IMG/VR virus record: IMGVR_UViG_3300048999_000045
Location: 1-40,782 of that record
DNA length: 40,782 bases
DNA from: a virus
Reading direction: 5' to 3' (one strand)
The notes under the pieces were generated by a model. It was given only the letters and a program-made list of their open reading frames with translations. It did not search any database and had not been told where the DNA came from. Shown here piece after piece: positions 7,589 through 17,913 of the stretch; the first letter of the stretch is position 1; each line of letters opens with the position of its first letter. The position numbers and the translations under genes were made by a program.

Positions 7589-8487
7589 AGAGATGTCTCC
7601 TCTGTGGGAACAAATGGATAGCCGCGGAAGTTCACCTCATTGTTCAGTTCCTGACAGCGGGTGAAGCTTCGATCACATCCCTCATACACAACGAAGTCCT
7701 GACCCGTGCTCGGGGTTACCTCAAGCGGATAGGATAGAACGAGTTTCACACCGGGAACAACCTCGCGGATAGTCCTGACTAGGGTCACACCCGAGACGGT
7801 TTCGATGTAAACTGTCCCGAGAGCATGCTTAGCCAAAGCACCGGCCCAATTGATAACGTTGTTAGTGGAGCCGGCACCGATCAACCCGTTGGTCTGGAAT
7901 AACGTCCTATCGAGCTTACACCCGAGGTCATAGATTGCATTGCGACATGAGGGCTGGAACAGCGTTGTCGGAACGTTGATGTTTAGCAGCCCCAAGTCTG
8001 ACCGGGTCTTGAACTTGGCGAAGGATCTTCCGATCTGGTCTAGGTCCGCGATCTTTCCCGCATACATGCGAGTGCCGCCCATCCACGCCGTTGGCACATT
8101 GCCGCCACCCCAATTCTCGGCAAAGTAGCGATCACGCGTCAAGGATCCACCGTCGAAGCGTCCCCACAGCAATGCCTGGGGAAGTGAGATACCTTGGAAC
8201 AACATGCTGGGCGTGAAGTCTAGTTGAGCTTCCTGCTCATCGACATCGACACCTAGTTGGCTCACGGTCTTGATGCCGCTGACCTTCACTCCCTTGGAAG
8301 TGAACGTCACCTTTACGCCGCCGCCAATGGGAGTGACGATGACATCCTTCTGGGCATTGGAGCAACGGATCTTGTCATTGTTGGGTGCTGTGATCGTGTA
8401 GCAATCCACGAAGACGAACTGCCGTGAGGCAATAACCGCCTGGACCTCGGCTTCAGTATACCCCGGCTCTGGCTGAATGGTCCTCAC
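7585..8487 (-). CDS. DUF2163 / phage BR0599-family tail protein
   Basis: A 300-residue protein. The N-terminal two thirds resemble DUF2163, and the C-terminus carries the BR0599-type signature: a Cys-Asp pair, then FTRCQELNNEVNFRGYPFVP. It corresponds to gene 13 of the Rhodobacter gene transfer agent, a hub component of the baseplate. Four Cys residues near the C-terminal signature and near residue 185 could bind metal; in the GTA homologue an iron-sulfur cluster has been reported, but whether this one binds it is inference. It overlaps both neighbours by 4 bases. Confidence 0.85.
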   Translation of the reverse strand: MRTIQPEPGYTEAEVQAVIASRQFVFVDCYTITAPNNDKIRCSNAQKDVIVTPIGGGVKVTFTSKGVKVSGIKTVSQLGVDVDEQEAQLDFTPSMLFQGISLPQALLWGRFDGGSLTRDRYFAENWGGGNVPTAWMGGTRMYAGKIADLDQIGRSFAKFKTRSDLGLLNINVPTTLFQPSCRNAIYDLGCKLDRTLFQTNGLIGAGSTNNVINWAGALAKHALGTVYIETVSGVTLVRTIREVVPGVKLVLSYPLEVTPSTGQDFVVYEGCDRSFTRCQELNNEVNFRGYPFVPTEETSL

Positions 8488-9611
8488 TGGATAAGGCTCC
8501 TGAAGTTAACTTCCTGCAATTCCCACAGTTGGTTCATGAACTTGTTGAACTCAATCTCGTCGTCTTTGAACCTGCAGACAAAGTAGTATTGAAAGCTTGC
8601 CGTTGCAATCGAGTTGACAGGCGGAGCCGTGTCGAAGGCAATCACGTTGGGCATGGTGATCGTGTAGTCAGCAGGATCGACGAGATACTGATAGTGAAAC
8701 ACGACGGTCTGACCCTGCCTCGCAGAGTTGAAGGTGTAGGTGTGACCGGAACGCGTATACTGGTTGGCGGTTGGTGCGCTCACGACCTCAGTGAGCGTAG
8801 TTGCTCCGATGGTAACAACGGGAAGAACGGTCGGAGTGTGGTTGGTAGTAACCACGTAAGGTCCCGGCGTGACTGGAATGACACGAGTCTCATCCGTCTC
8901 GAGCCAAACGTCTAGAGTCTCGTCGGTGTTGAGCTGACCGACCGGTTCGTAGAAACCGCCCATACCTCTCACGAGGTTGAAGTCCACAGTCACGCCGTCA
9001 AAGATCTTCTGGAAACCCGCGGTGACAGTGTAGTCGTCAGGATCGCGGAATAGCCAAGCCTCGAAACTACCGCGACGAGACAAGAAGAAACCCATGAGTG
9101 TATGGAGATCCGTCTCACCAACGGAGACAGGCCTGTCGGGAAGATAGTCGTAGGTCATGGTGTATTCCCAGCGCGGGTTCTCCCAATAAGATGTAGCAGT
9201 CTCCTCGCCGCTGGTATGCTGAACTATCTTGTTGCTGAACATCGGACGCTTCTGAACATCGAAGGCCAAACCCTTTAGAACTATCGGGTCTCCCGTCAGC
9301 GGGTCTGTACCAGGGAACACTTCGGTAGCCATTACTGCCTCCAGAACTTCCATGAGCGCTTCGACGACGATCCCGCGGGTTCGAAGGTTCGGCGGAAAGT
9401 TGTGATCGACGTTGGTCTCAACGCCAAGAAGTCTTGTTCTAAGGTTCGGGGGTGCTTGATGATCCCGAGTAGACTCGACGATGGTAGATCGAGTCCGCAT
9501 AGCCGCGGGACCGTCACCGGCACTCTCGACAGTGAGCATCCGTGTGCGGAGAGCTGCGGCGTAAGCACCAAGAGCACCGGTACTAAGCAGACGAACATGG
9601 ATAGCTGCCAC
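8484..9611 (-). CDS. DUF2460-like tail protein with N-terminal repeats
   Basis: 375 residues. From about residue 110 to the end the protein resembles DUF2460 (gene 12 of the Rhodobacter gene transfer agent, distal tail or hub protein): 'LSRRGSFEAWLFRDPDDY' is the usual signature and the C-terminus ends in a conserved FNKFMNQLWELQEVNFRS-type helix. Before it lies an extra region of four imperfect repeats starting at residues 21, 38, 57 and 76, each with the pattern LRTRxxxVE followed by a D-H/G and P-P-N spacer. These repeats are not part of the family core. The start is the ATG 4 bases after the upstream stop. The gene overlaps the next by 4 bases. Confidence 0.78.
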   Translation of the reverse strand: MAAIHVRLLSTGALGAYAAALRTRMLTVESAGDGPAAMRTRSTIVESTRDHQAPPNLRTRLLGVETNVDHNFPPNLRTRGIVVEALMEVLEAVMATEVFPGTDPLTGDPIVLKGLAFDVQKRPMFSNKIVQHTSGEETATSYWENPRWEYTMTYDYLPDRPVSVGETDLHTLMGFFLSRRGSFEAWLFRDPDDYTVTAGFQKIFDGVTVDFNLVRGMGGFYEPVGQLNTDETLDVWLETDETRVIPVTPGPYVVTTNHTPTVLPVVTIGATTLTEVVSAPTANQYTRSGHTYTFNSARQGQTVVFHYQYLVDPADYTITMPNVIAFDTAPPVNSIATASFQYYFVCRFKDDEIEFNKFMNQLWELQEVNFRSLIQ

Positions 9612-9615
9612 ATCG

Positions 9616-10713
9616 CTAACCCAACAGGACTTGCTGACCGGCCTGGATGGCGTTCAGCTCTGCAGCTGTCCACCCTACGCCGGTGTTGGGGTTGATGTCC
9701 CATATATCACGGTAGTAGTGATAGCTTTGGGCAAGATAGTGATCCACACCGTCGTAGATTGTTCCTCCCGTCTTAAGTGACAGCTTGCTCTTGAGCTGAG
9801 TGGAGTCATCCTGCCTGTGTGCACCGACAACCTGAACGCCCAGGATATTTTGAGCAGTTACATTGGGATCCATCGTGTATAGGTCTCTGTGAGTCATGAC
9901 AGAGTCATAGACGTACTCAACCTCAGTCAAGACCCGCTCGTTCACAGCATCCCAGTTAGCTGCCGCACCAAAGACACTCATCTGAGTGAGGTCTCCCGGC
10001 GCAGTCGTGAGCTGAGCGTTAACTCGAACGTTGCCAAGATAGTCGATATTGTCTACGCCTGTATCATCAAGGATATATCGGTCATCCCACAGGGTCGTAT
10101 TGTAGCTCGACCTCCAGCTATATTGAAGCGTGTCCCAGCCATAATCAGCGCCCAGAAGAGGCGGCATAAGGTTGCCGGTTCTGCCGAGATAGGAGATCAC
10201 TGTGACTGTGTTAACGCGGACCTCGACCATACCGGCTGTGGGATGGATTAGCCACTTCACCTCGATATAGTCCCACTCATTGACGTGTGTGACTTTGTTA
10301 TGTGAGGTAGCAACCAGCGTTAATCCATTCTTGTTGACCGAGGAAGTTCCCCCGATATATAAACGAAAGACACCATCCTCTTCCCACTGAAGAACCCATT
10401 GGTCACCGTTGCCACCTTCACCGTCATATGCGCCGATCTGAAACGGTTGCCAGAGCCCGCCATTGCCTTGGGCCAGATAGAATGCCTGACCCATTACTAC
10501 GGTTTCGGTAGTGAAGCGGTTACCCACCGCCTCATACATCGAGGCACCACCGGAGTGAAGTCCGGTCTGCCCCAAGGCAAGCCCGCTGCCAAAGCGACCG
10601 AGGGAGGTAGCGATGTTAACGGTGTTACCATACCAACCGTCGGCCAGCGCATTCACCTCGCAGCCCGTACTAACGGGAAGATAGTCCCAACCATCAATCC
10701 GAAAAAGCGCCAT
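9616..10713 (-). CDS. virion protein with LamG/concanavalin-like fold
   Basis: A 365-residue protein between the tape measure and the DUF2460-like protein. The first 230 residues resemble a laminin-G/concanavalin-like sandwich: alternating strands with NEWDYIEVKWLIHPTAGMVE, a pattern typical of these carbohydrate-binding folds in phage structural proteins. The C-terminal part (about 240-365) contains TQMSVFGAAANWDAVNE and a YDSVMTHRDLYTMDP-like stretch also seen in uncharacterised phage tail proteins. It overlaps the tape-measure stop by one base. A tail-side appendage or distal tail component is likely. No enzymatic motif is visible. Confidence 0.65.
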   Translation of the reverse strand: MALFRIDGWDYLPVSTGCEVNALADGWYGNTVNIATSLGRFGSGLALGQTGLHSGGASMYEAVGNRFTTETVVMGQAFYLAQGNGGLWQPFQIGAYDGEGGNGDQWVLQWEEDGVFRLYIGGTSSVNKNGLTLVATSHNKVTHVNEWDYIEVKWLIHPTAGMVEVRVNTVTVISYLGRTGNLMPPLLGADYGWDTLQYSWRSSYNTTLWDDRYILDDTGVDNIDYLGNVRVNAQLTTAPGDLTQMSVFGAAANWDAVNERVLTEVEYVYDSVMTHRDLYTMDPNVTAQNILGVQVVGAHRQDDSTQLKSKLSLKTGGTIYDGVDHYLAQSYHYYRDIWDINPNTGVGWTAAELNAIQAGQQVLLG

Positions 10714-13700
10714 TACTTGCTACCCCCAACAAATTGTCCATCTCTCTGTTGCTTCTTCAGCCAACGAAGTAGACGGTTACCATCCCGACGCAATAGTTGA
10801 TCCATGCTCATGTCCTGGGCCTTGCCACCATAGGATGGACCATAGTGAAGGTGGGTTTCCCCGTTGTTCGTGGTACGAGACGAAGCCCCGGCCGCGGTCG
10901 CAGCACCGAAGATACCATCGGAGCCTCCGCCACGAAGCTGTTGCCGAAGAGGCTCTGCCGCCCAGGCTGGCAACACCATTTCCTTCTTGTGCAGCATTGA
11001 GAGCTGACCGTCGAACGGAACCTCGGCCTGACCGCCGCGAGCACTGATGAGCGCCGCGAACCCAAGCACCGCCGCCAAGGCAGCTGCGGCAGCGACAGGC
11101 GCGGCAACCGGGCCGATGAACGGGATAACGACGGTCGAACTGAACGCACCGGCTGCCGACGTTGCAGCGCGTGTCCCGATTTCTGCAACAGCACCCGCCG
11201 CACCAACAGTGCCACGAGTGGCTTCACCCGTAACCTTCGCACCAGTCTGAACAGCTTCTGATGCCACAGAGGCGCCGGTCTTGGCTCCCTGTTGTGCCAT
11301 GTGGATACCGACAGCTGCGGCGCCGATGCCTTCGCGAGTAGCCTCACCCGTTGCGGTGATACCCGTCCGGGTAGCTTCGCCCGCGGCAACAGCGGCAGTC
11401 TGTTGTGCCTGCTGAACGTGGATCAGTCCCATCTTGACTGCTTGCTTCGTCAGCCAATCGACCAGGACCCTTTCGCCCATGTCTGCGAACTTGTAGACGA
11501 TCTGATCGCCAAGGTTGATGAGACCCTGCCAAACCGTCATCGACCTCGTCCACAATCCCTGGAACGTATTGTTCAAGGATTGGCCGACAGTCTGGAACAT
11601 TCCCCGCCAAGTATCCATCGACACCTGCGCGGTCTGGATATTGATTGCTCTTGTTTTTTGCGCAGCCTGAACACGAATGCCCGTCATGCGGGTCTCATGC
11701 TCGGCTTCCATCACCTCGAGTTGGTTATTGAGCTGCCGGCGAGCATCCAGGGTCAGGTTCTCAAGAGAGAGCTGATCCTCTACAGCTTGGCGCTTGATCT
11801 GGTAGATGGTGTTTTCGAAGTTGACCTGATCCTGAGTCTCCTCGGCAAGGATCGCCTTCTTCTCAGCCAATGCTTCCCGCTGACCGATGAGCCCATTCTG
11901 CTGATTGAAGTCGACTACCTGACCATGCTCTTGCGTAAGCGAGTTACGGATCTCGTTCTCGGCATTAGCACCCTGCGTTGCAATGTCGATCTTCTTTTGG
12001 ATCGTCTCCTGTGCAATCTTAACTTGTTCTTGGCCGATCCGATACTCAAGATCGATGGTCTTCCTGTGTTGATCCTCGGCCTGCTTCGATCCGGCTCCGT
12101 AGAATGCGGCGGTCTTGGCTGTAATCTCATCCTGGATCTGAAGCTGCGCGAAGAGGTCTTCCTTATAGAGTTCCTTCTTCGCCTCAAGGGTAGCAACCTC
12201 ACCGTCGAGTGCTTCGCGCTGACGCCTATGCTCCTCGGTCTCTATAGCTCGGTCATCGGCGATGAGCTGGTTAGCAAGCTTTGATCCCGAGGGCTTTCCG
12301 ACTAGGGACTGAGGAGCTTCGATGTGGACGTGATTGGTATGCTGGTTGTCACCCGCTGGAATATCGTAGGTGGGTCCGCTGCCGTTGGGTTGATAGACCT
12401 TCCCATTCCACAGGATCCGGAAACCGCGAGCCTGGTAGGAAGCGACCATCTTATCCATTTGACGCTTAGCGGTTGCGTCATAGGCCTCTTCGCCAATGCC
12501 CGGAATGTTTACATCGATAGCGAACTCGGCATGAGCCTTGTTGCCCATTCCCGGGTGGTTACCGTGAACCCCTCCGAACTGGTTATTCTCGCCTACACCG
12601 TAGCCGGCCTTCTGTAACTCATGCCCCGCAAGAGCGATTGCCTGCTCACGAGTGTGGAAGATTTCCTTCGCTTCTGCACGAGCCGCTGCAGCATTGTCTC
12701 GACGAGCCTGAGCTTCTTGTTCCTTGACTTTGATGTAGCGCTCGTTCTCGGCGCGACGAGCTGCCTCATAAGCACTAGCCTGTGCAATCGTTTGACTGCT
12801 AGCCCGATAAAGTTCCGTTAGTTTCTGAAGGTTCTTCTGATGCTCACGATCTATCGCTGTGGCGTCAGCCTGTGCGTTGATTGTCGCAAGACGAGACTCA
12901 GTAAGGGCATCAGTCGATGTCTTCAGTAACTCCTGTTCCCGACTGAGTGCCCGCTGGGCGAGGACGACACGGCCATAAGCTACTGCCAGCATCGCGACCT
13001 GAGCAGCTTGCGGAGCTACGTTGTAGGCCGTGTTCTTGCCGGTCCGCATATCATCGTATTGCTTTTGGAGCTCGTTAAGCTTTGTTTGAGCGGTGGCGAC
13101 CGAAGCAAGTGCCTGAGCTTGAGTGTTATAGTTGAGGTTGTTGGTCAAGTCCAGGTTGGTCAGGGTCTGGTTGTTTGCATCTTTCTGCTGCGAAACATAA
13201 CCACGCAGTGCTTCGGTGAGGTCTTTGACCGTAGATGTGCGACGGGACTCCGCATCGTTCAGGTCGAGTGTCTTCTTCTTCCCGTCATCAAGAGATGACC
13301 ACAGGTAGCCGAGGACCATCGTGAAGCCGATGATCGCGGCACCCCAAGGACCGGCGAAGAACGCAGCGACACGACCCACAGTGCCGCCCATGGTCGACAT
13401 CGCCGCAGCGGTCTGACCTCCCTGCTGTGCAAGAATGACGAGCGGATGGATACCCGATGCCCAAGACGCGACCACGTCCTGCATCTGATAACCGATCTGG
13501 ACGTTCATGCTGTTCATGCGGCCCATCGTGCGGACGTTAACGTCCATCTGAGCCTTGGCTTGTTTCAGAACAGCAGTATACTCAGCCTGACTTAGCTTCT
13601 GCGCATCGAGTAGTCGCTTTGCGGTCTGGATCGTATTGTTATACCGCAGCTGCGCGGCGTAGGCCGGATCGATCGATGCACGAAGTTCCTGCGCTGCACG

Positions 13701-14531
13701 AGCCTCAGCCGCGGAAGCCTTTGCTGCGTCTGCTGTTGCCTTGGCGGCTTCACGAGCAGCGGCTGCTGCGAGACGTTCAGCGGCGGCTCTTTCCTGAGCA
13801 GCAGTCTTCGCAACCTGTGCTGCATCACGAGCTGCGGCTTTCTGATCCCGACGCGCCTGTTTCTCGGTCTCTGCAGCTTCGCGGATCGCAGCTTTCTCCT
13901 GTGCGACCTGTTCACGCTTCGCTGTCGCCTCGACTGCGGCGGCCTCCTTAGCAGCAGCCTTTGACTCCGCTGCTGCCATGCGCTCTGCATCGGCTTTCTC
14001 GCGGGCAGCGGCCTTCGCCTCTTGAGCGGCGGCGCGGATCGCTGCACGTTCCTCGGCCTTGCCTTGCTTGATTGCATCAGATGCCGCCTTCGCTGCAGCA
14101 CGTTCGGCCGCGGCCTTCTCCATTGCGGCAGTGCGGGTTGCTTCAGCTGCAGCCTTCGCGTCGGCATTCTCGGCTGCACGTCGAGCCTTCGCCTCCGCAG
14201 CGGCTGCACGACCGGCAGCGCTGTTACGCATGAGAGCAGCGCTCTCCTCATCGAGCAACTGCTTTGCTGCCTTGATCGTCGCGTTATATTCGCGGCGATC
14301 CATCTCCCCGGCCTTGAGGAGGATCTTCGCATCTGCAAGGAGTTTGTTGTAACGTTCCTGTGCAGCAAAGGTGGGATCGATTGCGGCCTTGATCCGCTTG
14401 AACGCCGCCTCGAGTTGTTTAGACTCATCGGTGACGCTCTTGATCGAGGCCTTCGCTCGACGACTACCCGACTCAACACCAGCGGGGTTAGCGCCTATGT
14501 TGATGTTCAGATCATTGGTATCATCAGCCAT
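10713..14531 (-). CDS. tape measure protein with embedded M15-like peptidase domain
   Basis: 1272 residues, by far the largest gene, in the standard tape-measure position after the tail chaperones. It sets tail length and helps DNA cross the cell envelope. Visible layout: N-terminal helical module (44-95); a very Ala/Lys/Glu-rich coiled coil (100-283); a second copy of the N-terminal module (284-330); hydrophobic segment about 392-412; a coiled coil to about 620; a peptidase-like domain (about 635-742) with His667, Asp673 and the His734-x-His736 pair, as in metallopeptidases of the M15 (D-Ala-D-Ala carboxypeptidase) type; further coiled coil; an Ala-rich region and hydrophobic segment at 1138-1163; and a C-terminal HKKEMVLPAW motif common in tape measures. 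It starts one base into the frameshift ORF stop (TGATG). Confidence 0.9.
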   Translation of the reverse strand: MADDTNDLNINIGANPAGVESGSRRAKASIKSVTDESKQLEAAFKRIKAAIDPTFAAQERYNKLLADAKILLKAGEMDRREYNATIKAAKQLLDEESAALMRNSAAGRAAAAEAKARRAAENADAKAAAEATRTAAMEKAAAERAAAKAASDAIKQGKAEERAAIRAAAQEAKAAAREKADAERMAAAESKAAAKEAAAVEATAKREQVAQEKAAIREAAETEKQARRDQKAAARDAAQVAKTAAQERAAAERLAAAAAREAAKATADAAKASAAEARAAQELRASIDPAYAAQLRYNNTIQTAKRLLDAQKLSQAEYTAVLKQAKAQMDVNVRTMGRMNSMNVQIGYQMQDVVASWASGIHPLVILAQQGGQTAAAMSTMGGTVGRVAAFFAGPWGAAIIGFTMVLGYLWSSLDDGKKKTLDLNDAESRRTSTVKDLTEALRGYVSQQKDANNQTLTNLDLTNNLNYNTQAQALASVATAQTKLNELQKQYDDMRTGKNTAYNVAPQAAQVAMLAVAYGRVVLAQRALSREQELLKTSTDALTESRLATINAQADATAIDREHQKNLQKLTELYRASSQTIAQASAYEAARRAENERYIKVKEQEAQARRDNAAAARAEAKEIFHTREQAIALAGHELQKAGYGVGENNQFGGVHGNHPGMGNKAHAEFAIDVNIPGIGEEAYDATAKRQMDKMVASYQARGFRILWNGKVYQPNGSGPTYDIPAGDNQHTNHVHIEAPQSLVGKPSGSKLANQLIADDRAIETEEHRRQREALDGEVATLEAKKELYKEDLFAQLQIQDEITAKTAAFYGAGSKQAEDQHRKTIDLEYRIGQEQVKIAQETIQKKIDIATQGANAENEIRNSLTQEHGQVVDFNQQNGLIGQREALAEKKAILAEETQDQVNFENTIYQIKRQAVEDQLSLENLTLDARRQLNNQLEVMEAEHETRMTGIRVQAAQKTRAINIQTAQVSMDTWRGMFQTVGQSLNNTFQGLWTRSMTVWQGLINLGDQIVYKFADMGERVLVDWLTKQAVKMGLIHVQQAQQTAAVAAGEATRTGITATGEATREGIGAAAVGIHMAQQGAKTGASVASEAVQTGAKVTGEATRGTVGAAGAVAEIGTRAATSAAGAFSSTVVIPFIGPVAAPVAAAAALAAVLGFAALISARGGQAEVPFDGQLSMLHKKEMVLPAWAAEPLRQQLRGGGSDGIFGAATAAGASSRTTNNGETHLHYGPSYGGKAQDMSMDQLLRRDGNRLLRWLKKQQRDGQFVGGSK

Positions 14532-14851
14532 CAGTTAATCATCCCACCCGGTCCAGCCAACTTAAGCAACTCATTGAAGTCACCGGCAGCGGTTGGTTTT
14601 CCGGACGATGACTTTTTCCTCTTCGGCTTAATCAATCCCAAGTAAGCTGCGGCGGAAACATAAACCGGTGGACCATTCTCAGACCAAAACTCAACCATCT
14701 TGTAATAGCGAGGAAGAGTCCACCGTTTCCTGACTAGCTCCCAGTCTCCTCCGCAGTATCCGGCGGCGACGAGCTCGGCGACAATATCTGAGCAGTCTCC
14801 TCGGAAAGGTTCTGCTTCACCAGATCCGCCAGAGGCGGAAGAGCTTCCCCC
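14531..14851 (-). CDS. tail assembly chaperone, -1 frameshift extension (T part)
   Basis: There is no start codon, but the -1 frame relative to the chaperone gene is open from well upstream to TGA 14531-14533. After the point where the chaperone ends (14734) it reads a natural-looking basic protein: DWELVRKRWTLPRYYKMVEF, then PPVYVSAAAYLG, ending FNELLKLAGPGG. That matches the lambda G/GT design: a minority of ribosomes slip -1 to add a ~100-residue C-terminal domain that holds the tail tube and tape measure. The best slip site is G-GGG-GAA at 14845-14851 (the P-site Gly codon re-pairs perfectly); a second candidate is G-AAA-AAG at 14932-14938. The stop overlaps the tape-measure ATG by one base. 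The exact site is inferred. Confidence 0.8.
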   Translation of the reverse strand, partial: GGSSSASGGSGEAEPFRGDCSDIVAELVAAGYCGGDWELVRKRWTLPRYYKMVEFWSENGPPVYVSAAAYLGLIKPKRKKSSSGKPTAAGDFNELLKLAGPGGMIN

Positions 14852-15189
14852 GGTGCGGGTTCCAGCCCAGCCTCCACGTTGATCTGATCCACAGACTTGC
14901 GGATACCCTCGATCTCTCTCGCCTTGATCTTCTTTTTCAGGAAGTAGACGATGCGTTCGAAGGTTTGATCCTGGCCGAGCATCTCATCTTCGGCAATATC
15001 GAACTTGGTCTTGTCGAAGTGCTCGGCCTCGAGAAGGCCTGCAGCGATGATGTTGATACCCGCAGCAACACCCTTCATGGGGTCCTGCGTCATCATGGCT
15101 TCTTCAACGAATGGCCATGCACGTTCAAGAGCAGCGAAGTTCATTTCGGGCACTTCGTATTCGGTGCCCCCAACTGTAACGATAGCCAT
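14734..15189 (-). CDS. tail assembly chaperone (G part)
   Basis: A 151-residue acidic protein just upstream of the tape measure, where tail chaperones lie. It keeps the tape measure soluble during tail assembly and is absent from the virion in known systems. The ATG at 15187-15189 (MAIVTVGGTEYEVPEMNF) is chosen because a GGAGGG site precedes it by 7 bases; an ATG 15 bases further upstream has no such site. Residues 3-22 look like the conserved start of alphaproteobacterial chaperones. The C-terminal 40 residues are Pro/Ser/Glu-rich and disordered, the usual place for the -1 slip into the overlapping frame (see 14531-14851). Confidence 0.8.
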   Translation of the reverse strand: MAIVTVGGTEYEVPEMNFAALERAWPFVEEAMMTQDPMKGVAAGINIIAAGLLEAEHFDKTKFDIAEDEMLGQDQTFERIVYFLKKKIKAREIEGIRKSVDQINVEAGLEPAPGEALPPLADLVKQNLSEETAQILSPSSSPPDTAEETGS

Positions 15190-15217
15190 TGGTTGTCCCT
15201 CCATTGGCAGTTAAGAC

Positions 15218-15281: not shown

Positions 15282-16037
15282 TTACGCTCCGCCGCCGGAG
15301 ATAGACGTGGTCGTGATACGAGCCACACGATTGGCCGCATCGGCGAACGCCTGTCCCGACAGGTCAGCAACGAGGTAGTCGTCCTGCTTCAGCGGCAGGG
15401 TCAGCTTGTCAGCCACGTTGCTGTAGAGGAGCAGAGTGAAGGTCTTGCCTTCATAGAGCTGCGACAGAACGAGCTGAAACTTCGGCGTGTTGCCCATCAG
15501 CTGATTGCTCAGGTCGAGCGATCCGCCATTGGCGGAGTCTTCCCACAGGTAGTTCAGGAGGACGCCCAGGCCGACATCCGCCAAAGCGAACGTATAGACG
15601 CCGGCGGCGCTGACCTTGTACTGACCGGTCGTGGGAGTTCCCGATGCGACCTGCACCAACGGCAGACCCGTTGCAGCGAAGTAGACACCGAGGTCCATGA
15701 TGAAGTCGGCGCCGTGGGTTGCCGTCAGTTGGAACGGAGTGGACGGGATAGTTCCGGTCTCGTTGAAGACCTGGACCAACTGATTGCCCGTGTCGACCGT
15801 TTCCCCGAAGAAGATCTGGTTGAAGGCGGCGACATCGATGTTACCTGTCGAGGCCTTCCACTCGATCTTCGTCTTGCCGCGAGCAACGTCCAGCGCGAAC
15901 TGGTACTGACCGAATAGCTGCTTGATGTCACCGGAGAAATCCACGTTGACATCTTGCAATGCGCCAAAGCGCAGAGGGGCACCTCCTCCAACGGGCATCG
16001 CAAAGAGCTGCCCGGTGCCGAAGACGTATTGACTCAT
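15282..16037 (-). CDS. major tail tube protein
   Basis: 251 residues, beginning MSQYVFGTGQLFAMPVGGGAPLRFG, a start typical of siphovirus tail tube proteins that pack as stacked hexameric rings. The sequence is beta-rich, with KIEWKASTGNIDVAAFNQIF near residue 56 and a C-terminal LVADLSGQAFADAANRVARI-like stretch. It lies directly upstream of the tail chaperone pair and downstream of the tail completion genes, the standard order. An AAGGAG site sits 8 bases before the ATG, and noncoding hairpins flank it on both sides, in keeping with high expression. Confidence 0.85.
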   Translation of the reverse strand: MSQYVFGTGQLFAMPVGGGAPLRFGALQDVNVDFSGDIKQLFGQYQFALDVARGKTKIEWKASTGNIDVAAFNQIFFGETVDTGNQLVQVFNETGTIPSTPFQLTATHGADFIMDLGVYFAATGLPLVQVASGTPTTGQYKVSAAGVYTFALADVGLGVLLNYLWEDSANGGSLDLSNQLMGNTPKFQLVLSQLYEGKTFTLLLYSNVADKLTLPLKQDDYLVADLSGQAFADAANRVARITTTSISGGGA

Positions 16038-17118: not shown

Positions 17119-17913
17119 CTACATCGGAACTACATTAGCGTATGGCTGAAGAACGCAGCGGATAGAGTCACTCATATCCTTCTGCGAGAAGGTGACGGTC
17201 TCCTGACCTCCCAACGTCTTCGAAAGAATGCCGATCCGATCCTTGCGCTTATACCATTCACCGATCAGTTCGGTTACAGCAAAGGAGATATCGAACGGGA
17301 CATAGTCATAGGTGATGATCGCTTCCGCATTCATCGCATCGCTAGCGAAGGTGTAGGTGCCCCACTCATCCACGCTGTATTCACCCGCTCCGGGGTTCTC
17401 GGTAACCTTGACTGCGACAACACCATCGATGGTCACACCGATGTCTGCGATCCATTGCCCACCCTCTGTGGGCGTAACCTGAAACGGGGAAGCGGAAATG
17501 ATTGCAGTCTGCGAGGTCTGGAAGCCGGCGGTGTAGATCACCTGCGACGGAGCTCCCTGCCAGAAATTATAGCCGTATAGGTCAAGCTGCTGTTGACCAA
17601 ACCGAGCATCGCTCACGACATAGCCTGATGCGGGGTTCCCGTAGTTGCCCAGAACGGACGCCGCGACAGCAGAACCAGCGATCCCCACAGAGGAGACGGA
17701 CCTGACGGGCCAGTTCAAGAGCATCGCGGAAGTCTTACCGTTGCCCCTGAAGTTCTGCGTATAGGATCGGACACCGAAGCTGTCTCGACCGAGCCAGGTG
17801 ATGACGAACTGAGAGGCTGAAACGATCAGCCGAGTGAGAACAGCGTTGCTATCCTCATTCGCTATGTCAAGATAGTCCTTGACCTGGCTTAGCGTTGTCA
17901 GCCTCTCAGTCAT
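17119..17913 (-). CDS. head-tail connector (gp6-like) protein
   Basis: 264 residues. The N-terminal MTERLTTLSQVKDYLDIANE and the following NAVLTRLIVSASQFVITWLG are the helical signature of the gp6/head-tail adaptor family (rings that sit under the portal). The first ~100 residues match the usual family length; the remaining 160 form a beta-rich region not found in the minimal gp6, including a GEYSVDEWGTYTFASDAMNAE-like stretch and ending in a basic amphipathic region. The gene lies one base from the gp10-like gene. Function is assembling the neck. Confidence 0.7.
   Translation of the reverse strand: MTERLTTLSQVKDYLDIANEDSNAVLTRLIVSASQFVITWLGRDSFGVRSYTQNFRGNGKTSAMLLNWPVRSVSSVGIAGSAVAASVLGNYGNPASGYVVSDARFGQQQLDLYGYNFWQGAPSQVIYTAGFQTSQTAIISASPFQVTPTEGGQWIADIGVTIDGVVAVKVTENPGAGEYSVDEWGTYTFASDAMNAEAIITYDYVPFDISFAVTELIGEWYKRKDRIGILSKTLGGQETVTFSQKDMSDSIRCVLQPYANVVPM

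Follow-up and report, generated by a model that had tools for sequence, protein, structure and literature searches.

Between a probable major tail protein gene and a tape measure gene of a virus lie two overlapping frames, the second of which lacks a usable start codon, and the question is whether this second frame is translated and, if so, how ribosomes come to read it. Both frames are on the minus strand of the window, the whole stretch of 40,782 nucleotides of the IMG/VR virus record IMGVR_UViG_3300048999_000045 that was analysed. The first, a putative tail-assembly chaperone gene (G), was called at 15204..14734 with a length of 156 aa from ATG 15204. This call is probably five codons too early, because nearly all of 30 aligned G homologues begin like MAxVTxGG, which favours ATG 15189, an ATG preceded by GGAGGG; the likely gene is then 14734..15189 (151 aa). 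The -1 frame relative to G runs stop-to-stop from 14983 to 14531. The A of its TGA (14533-14531) doubles as the A of the tape measure ATG (14531-14529), so that, as the initial annotation had described, the frame is open from before the G stop and ends one base into the tape measure start.

The surroundings are the head-tail module of a long-tailed phage, with terminase, portal, protease, head-tail connector, tape measure, DUF2460 and tail genes around the two frames; tRNA and Rfam searches of the window found no family. Directly downstream is the tail tape measure protein (10713..14531, minus strand, 1272 aa; PHROG 2854, tape measure, E=1.3e-12). The gene directly upstream (15282..16037, minus strand) is probably that of the major tail protein, judging by its position, and Brevundimonas phages have a homologue of it in the corresponding position. 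It is matched over its full length by PHROG 8234, a family with no annotated function, which also matches residues 136-204 of the gene at 17119-17913 (the C-terminal half of a head-tail connector) and residues 263-310 of the DUF2460 gene at 8484-9611. The latter two cover profile positions of about 104-175, and the three matches suggest a small domain common to these structural genes.

The openness of the -1 frame is weak evidence by itself. Open frames of 214 and 226 codons occur on the other strand at the same place, the openness of the overlap with G has P of about 0.07 under synonymous shuffling, and that of the rest of the frame has P of about 0.025 under base shuffling. Comparison with relatives is strong evidence, and the case rests on it because openness alone is weak. 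The product of the -1 frame (T) has 57-58% identity (tblastn) to its counterparts in the Brevundimonas phages Strzyga and Polewnik. An alignment-based scan with a T profile gave 42 IMG/VR loci and two loci in Caulobacteraceae genomes, Pseudomonas phage KT1 was found using the Strzyga T protein, and Acinetobacter phage 5W was found through the upstream gene. Full-length G gave no match in the phage collection or the genome contigs. In the relatives, T is an open frame at -1 relative to a G homologue, with T identities of about 29-80% across some fifty loci. That T is only a chance frame in GC-rich DNA, or a relic of a sequencing error splitting one gene, could be entertained in view of the long chance frames on the other strand, but such a reading is contradicted by the conservation of T over these loci, by the constant frame relation and by the low dN/dS described below, and its probability is negligible.

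How T is reached is indicated by a second conserved element. The initial annotation had put forward G GGG GAA as the best slippery site without settling the matter, and had suggested aligning homologues; the alignment now places the site at 14845..14851 on the minus strand, where the 0-frame codons are CCG GGG GAA (as they are also in L025, one of the relatives). Of 49 loci, the window included, drawn from IMG/VR, from Brevundimonas, Pseudomonas and Acinetobacter phages and from Caulobacteraceae genomes, 48 (35 groups at 95% T identity) have a five-G heptamer at the same place and in the same register: xxG GGG GAR, with GGGGGGA in one. By groups, the codon after xxG GGG is GAA in 22, GAG in 12 and GGA in one. 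The search was confined to five-G runs in the register of G; what it tests is that such a run is present in all loci but one. Elsewhere in the same loci, none of 13905 background codon triplets is xxG GGG GAR, and within the structural genes of the window (7689 codons) the heptamer is the sole in-frame copy. GGG makes up 14.8% of glycine codons in the background, and G 34.5% of third positions; despite these low values, the site is NNG GGG in all 48 five-G loci. The loci are related by descent, and naive probabilities for the heptamer (about 1e-15 and less) therefore overstate its significance; synonymous positions between many of the 49 are otherwise close to saturated. The heptamer persists in relatives whose T is as little as about 30% identical, among them phages whose annotations list G and T as separate hypothetical proteins.

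The 49th locus (L038:4150-4512) alone among the relatives lacks the five-G heptamer. In the equivalent position, 111 nt ahead of its G stop, a distance common among the other loci, stands the canonical GGGCCCT, a natural replacement of the slip site. Seven relatives (L008, L009, L017, L018, L026, L034 and L035) carry two or three in-frame copies of G GGG GAR within the G/T overlap and may offer ribosomes more than one place to slip. Two other candidate heptamers were rejected. AAAGAAG, far upstream in the overlap of the window, re-pairs poorly and is absent from relatives, and CCCTTCG in relatives is a by-product of conserved EPF codons and is absent from the window.

A five-G run could also act at the level of transcription, with RNA polymerase slippage on GGGGG producing a mixed mRNA population in which G is fused to T. 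The presence of the run in 48 of the 49 loci is what such a mechanism would predict, but the constant codon register, followed by GAA, GAG or once GGA, fits tandem tRNA slippage instead, and the relative with GGGCCCT has no five-G run at all. Polymerase slippage on runs as short as five G is also expected to be weak, and this explanation is considered extremely unlikely.

Translation of T as a small gene in its own right, from an internal start at ATG 14698-14696 or by re-initiation past the G stop, is how public records treat the frame: annotated records list G and T as two separate hypothetical proteins, and those of the Brevundimonas phages start an independent hypothetical inside the T frame. 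The location of the conserved residues argues against this. The T core is GDCSDIVAELVAAG...W...W...GPPVY in the alignments, and its most conserved residues (AELVAAG and GxW) lie upstream of the first T-frame ATG. In the window 51 codons separate this ATG from the slip, which puts it within the conserved domain, and the core is preceded by no ATG, GTG or TTG, in agreement with the earlier claim that the frame has no usable start of its own. In 30 of 33 scorable representatives (KT1 and 5W, with their diverged conserved core, were left out), the T frame likewise has none of these three start codons from the heptamer to the AELVAAG core or in the 40 codons before the heptamer. Independent initiation of T would also leave the conserved heptamer unexplained, and seems very unlikely.

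Tandem slippage at the heptamer is consistent with the pattern of selection. In comparisons of the window with seven relatives, the G frame has a dN/dS of 0.10-0.28 ahead of the heptamer and of 0.69-1.57 past it, and in this latter part changes are as frequent at second as at third positions. For the T frame the values are 0.22-0.52 within the overlap and 0.09-0.24 once the G stop is passed, the latter range covering comparisons in which dS could be estimated. The frame under purifying selection thus changes at the heptamer. Of the stretch that is open from 14983, only 14851-14534, the 106 codons from the re-paired GGG, would be read as the T domain (14534..14851, minus strand).

The remainder of G past the heptamer (14734..14844, minus strand) is probably an expendable extension. 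Its dN/dS gives no sign of purifying selection, it varies in length from 0 to 138 nt among homologues, and it is mostly unstructured and of low confidence in the AlphaFold2 model. Acinetobacter phage 5W (L052:5080-5089) has a 0-frame TAG directly after GGG GAA and a tail of length 0, unlike most relatives, in which the G frame continues for 9 to 46 codons. In the same model, pLDDT is about 97 over residues 1-110 of G but falls at residues 114-115, where the slip is, so that the confidently folded domain ends at the slip site. T is modelled as a small helical domain with moderate confidence.

Similarity to named families is slight. No match of the G or T proteins was found to Pfam or PHROG families with a chaperone name, the sequence search of solved structures gave no match, and no PDB fold match was found for G. 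One G homologue weakly matches PHROG 7947 and five T homologues weakly match PHROG 8018, both of unknown function, and because the matches are weak, membership in these families is tentative. A Foldseek search of the G model against viral models placed the GT protein of N15, a lambda-like phage, second (probability 0.87, TM 0.46, E 0.16), in a list that holds several other tail chaperones; with E values above 0.1 for the fold matches, the likeness to N15 GT is suggestive, not significant.

The lambda GT-like layout first proposed for the locus is supported by the conserved register of the heptamer, the conserved T and the switch in the selected frame, and it is very probable that G and T are a lambda-type G/GT pair expressed by a -1 slip at G GGG GAA. 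The majority of ribosomes would read G through to its own stop. In a minority, the tRNA-Gly on GGG and the tRNA-Glu on GAA would step back one base onto GGG GGA, producing a G-T fusion of about 219 aa, with 115 residues through the GAA codon and 104 from the -1 frame. As first described, re-pairing would be identical in the P site (GGG to GGG) and would differ only at the second base in the A site (GAA to GGA). The latter requires a U.G pair at the middle position (U35.G), which counts against a frameshift here; the heptamer departs from the canonical X XXY YYZ pattern, where each tRNA regains complete pairing at bases 1 and 2 of its codon. The slip event, its rate, the stimulating hairpin and the chaperone roles are inferred for this pair.

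A stimulatory hairpin past the heptamer is plausible, if tentative. In the window, the predicted fold is CCGCC-TCT-GGCGG flanked by T and A (14824..14839, minus strand), with 5-6 bp starting about 5 nt past the heptamer. Folding z-scores for 50-nt windows, averaged over 30 loci across a 600-nt span, have a mean of -0.29 (sd 0.27) and reach their minimum, -1.0 to -1.1, at 0-6 nt past the heptamer. No covarying consensus structure was found downstream of the slip, and a conserved RNA structure there was rejected, as the raised folding tendency is without covariation. An internal Shine-Dalgarno stimulator was also rejected: 19 nt separate the end of a GGAGG from the heptamer that follows it, and this spacing is inconsistent among relatives.

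The lambda G and GT tail assembly chaperones are the textbook example of a -1 frameshift in a tail module (PMC5009743). The present pair shares with them the position between tail and tape measure genes, the predicted -1 fusion, the two-domain organization and a T that would be made only after the slip. It differs in its heptamer, G GGG GAA, and in that its sequence resembles none of the named chaperone families significantly. The lambda slip heptamer is G GGA AAG. By analogy with lambda, many G molecules would bind the tape measure protein, the few G-T molecules would recruit the major tail protein via T, and both would leave the finished tail. A parallel for the heptamer is the non-canonical GGGGGAA, a known slip class to which the site belongs. 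In about a thousand frameshift motifs of actinobacteriophage tail chaperones, the 'fivetwo' class consists of this one sequence (PRFect, PMC10885494), which has also been proposed, with a downstream RNA structure, as the slip site of corynephage phi16 (PMC5506516). The heptamer and the kind of gene are identical in these phages, and a downstream structure is likewise proposed for phi16, whereas the hosts and the protein family are different; unlike the 'fivetwo' motifs, about a third of the relatives here have GGGGGAG, one has GGGGGGA and one GGGCCCT.

What is new is thus the assignment of an unannotated family, the kind of mechanism being already known. A protein pair listed as separate hypotheticals can now be given one joined gene model and a likely function, and GGGGGAA, a slip site of actinobacteriophages, is extended to phages of Caulobacteraceae, Pseudomonas and Acinetobacter. 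In mechanistic terms, this adds a well-sampled natural series and no new principle. On balance, it would appear that an unannotated lineage of proteobacterial phages depends on the non-canonical G GGG GAR, with either GAA or GAG in the A site, which has persisted while the proteins diverged very widely and can give way to a canonical heptamer. If this is true, the G/T family could reveal what selection demands of a phage slip site.
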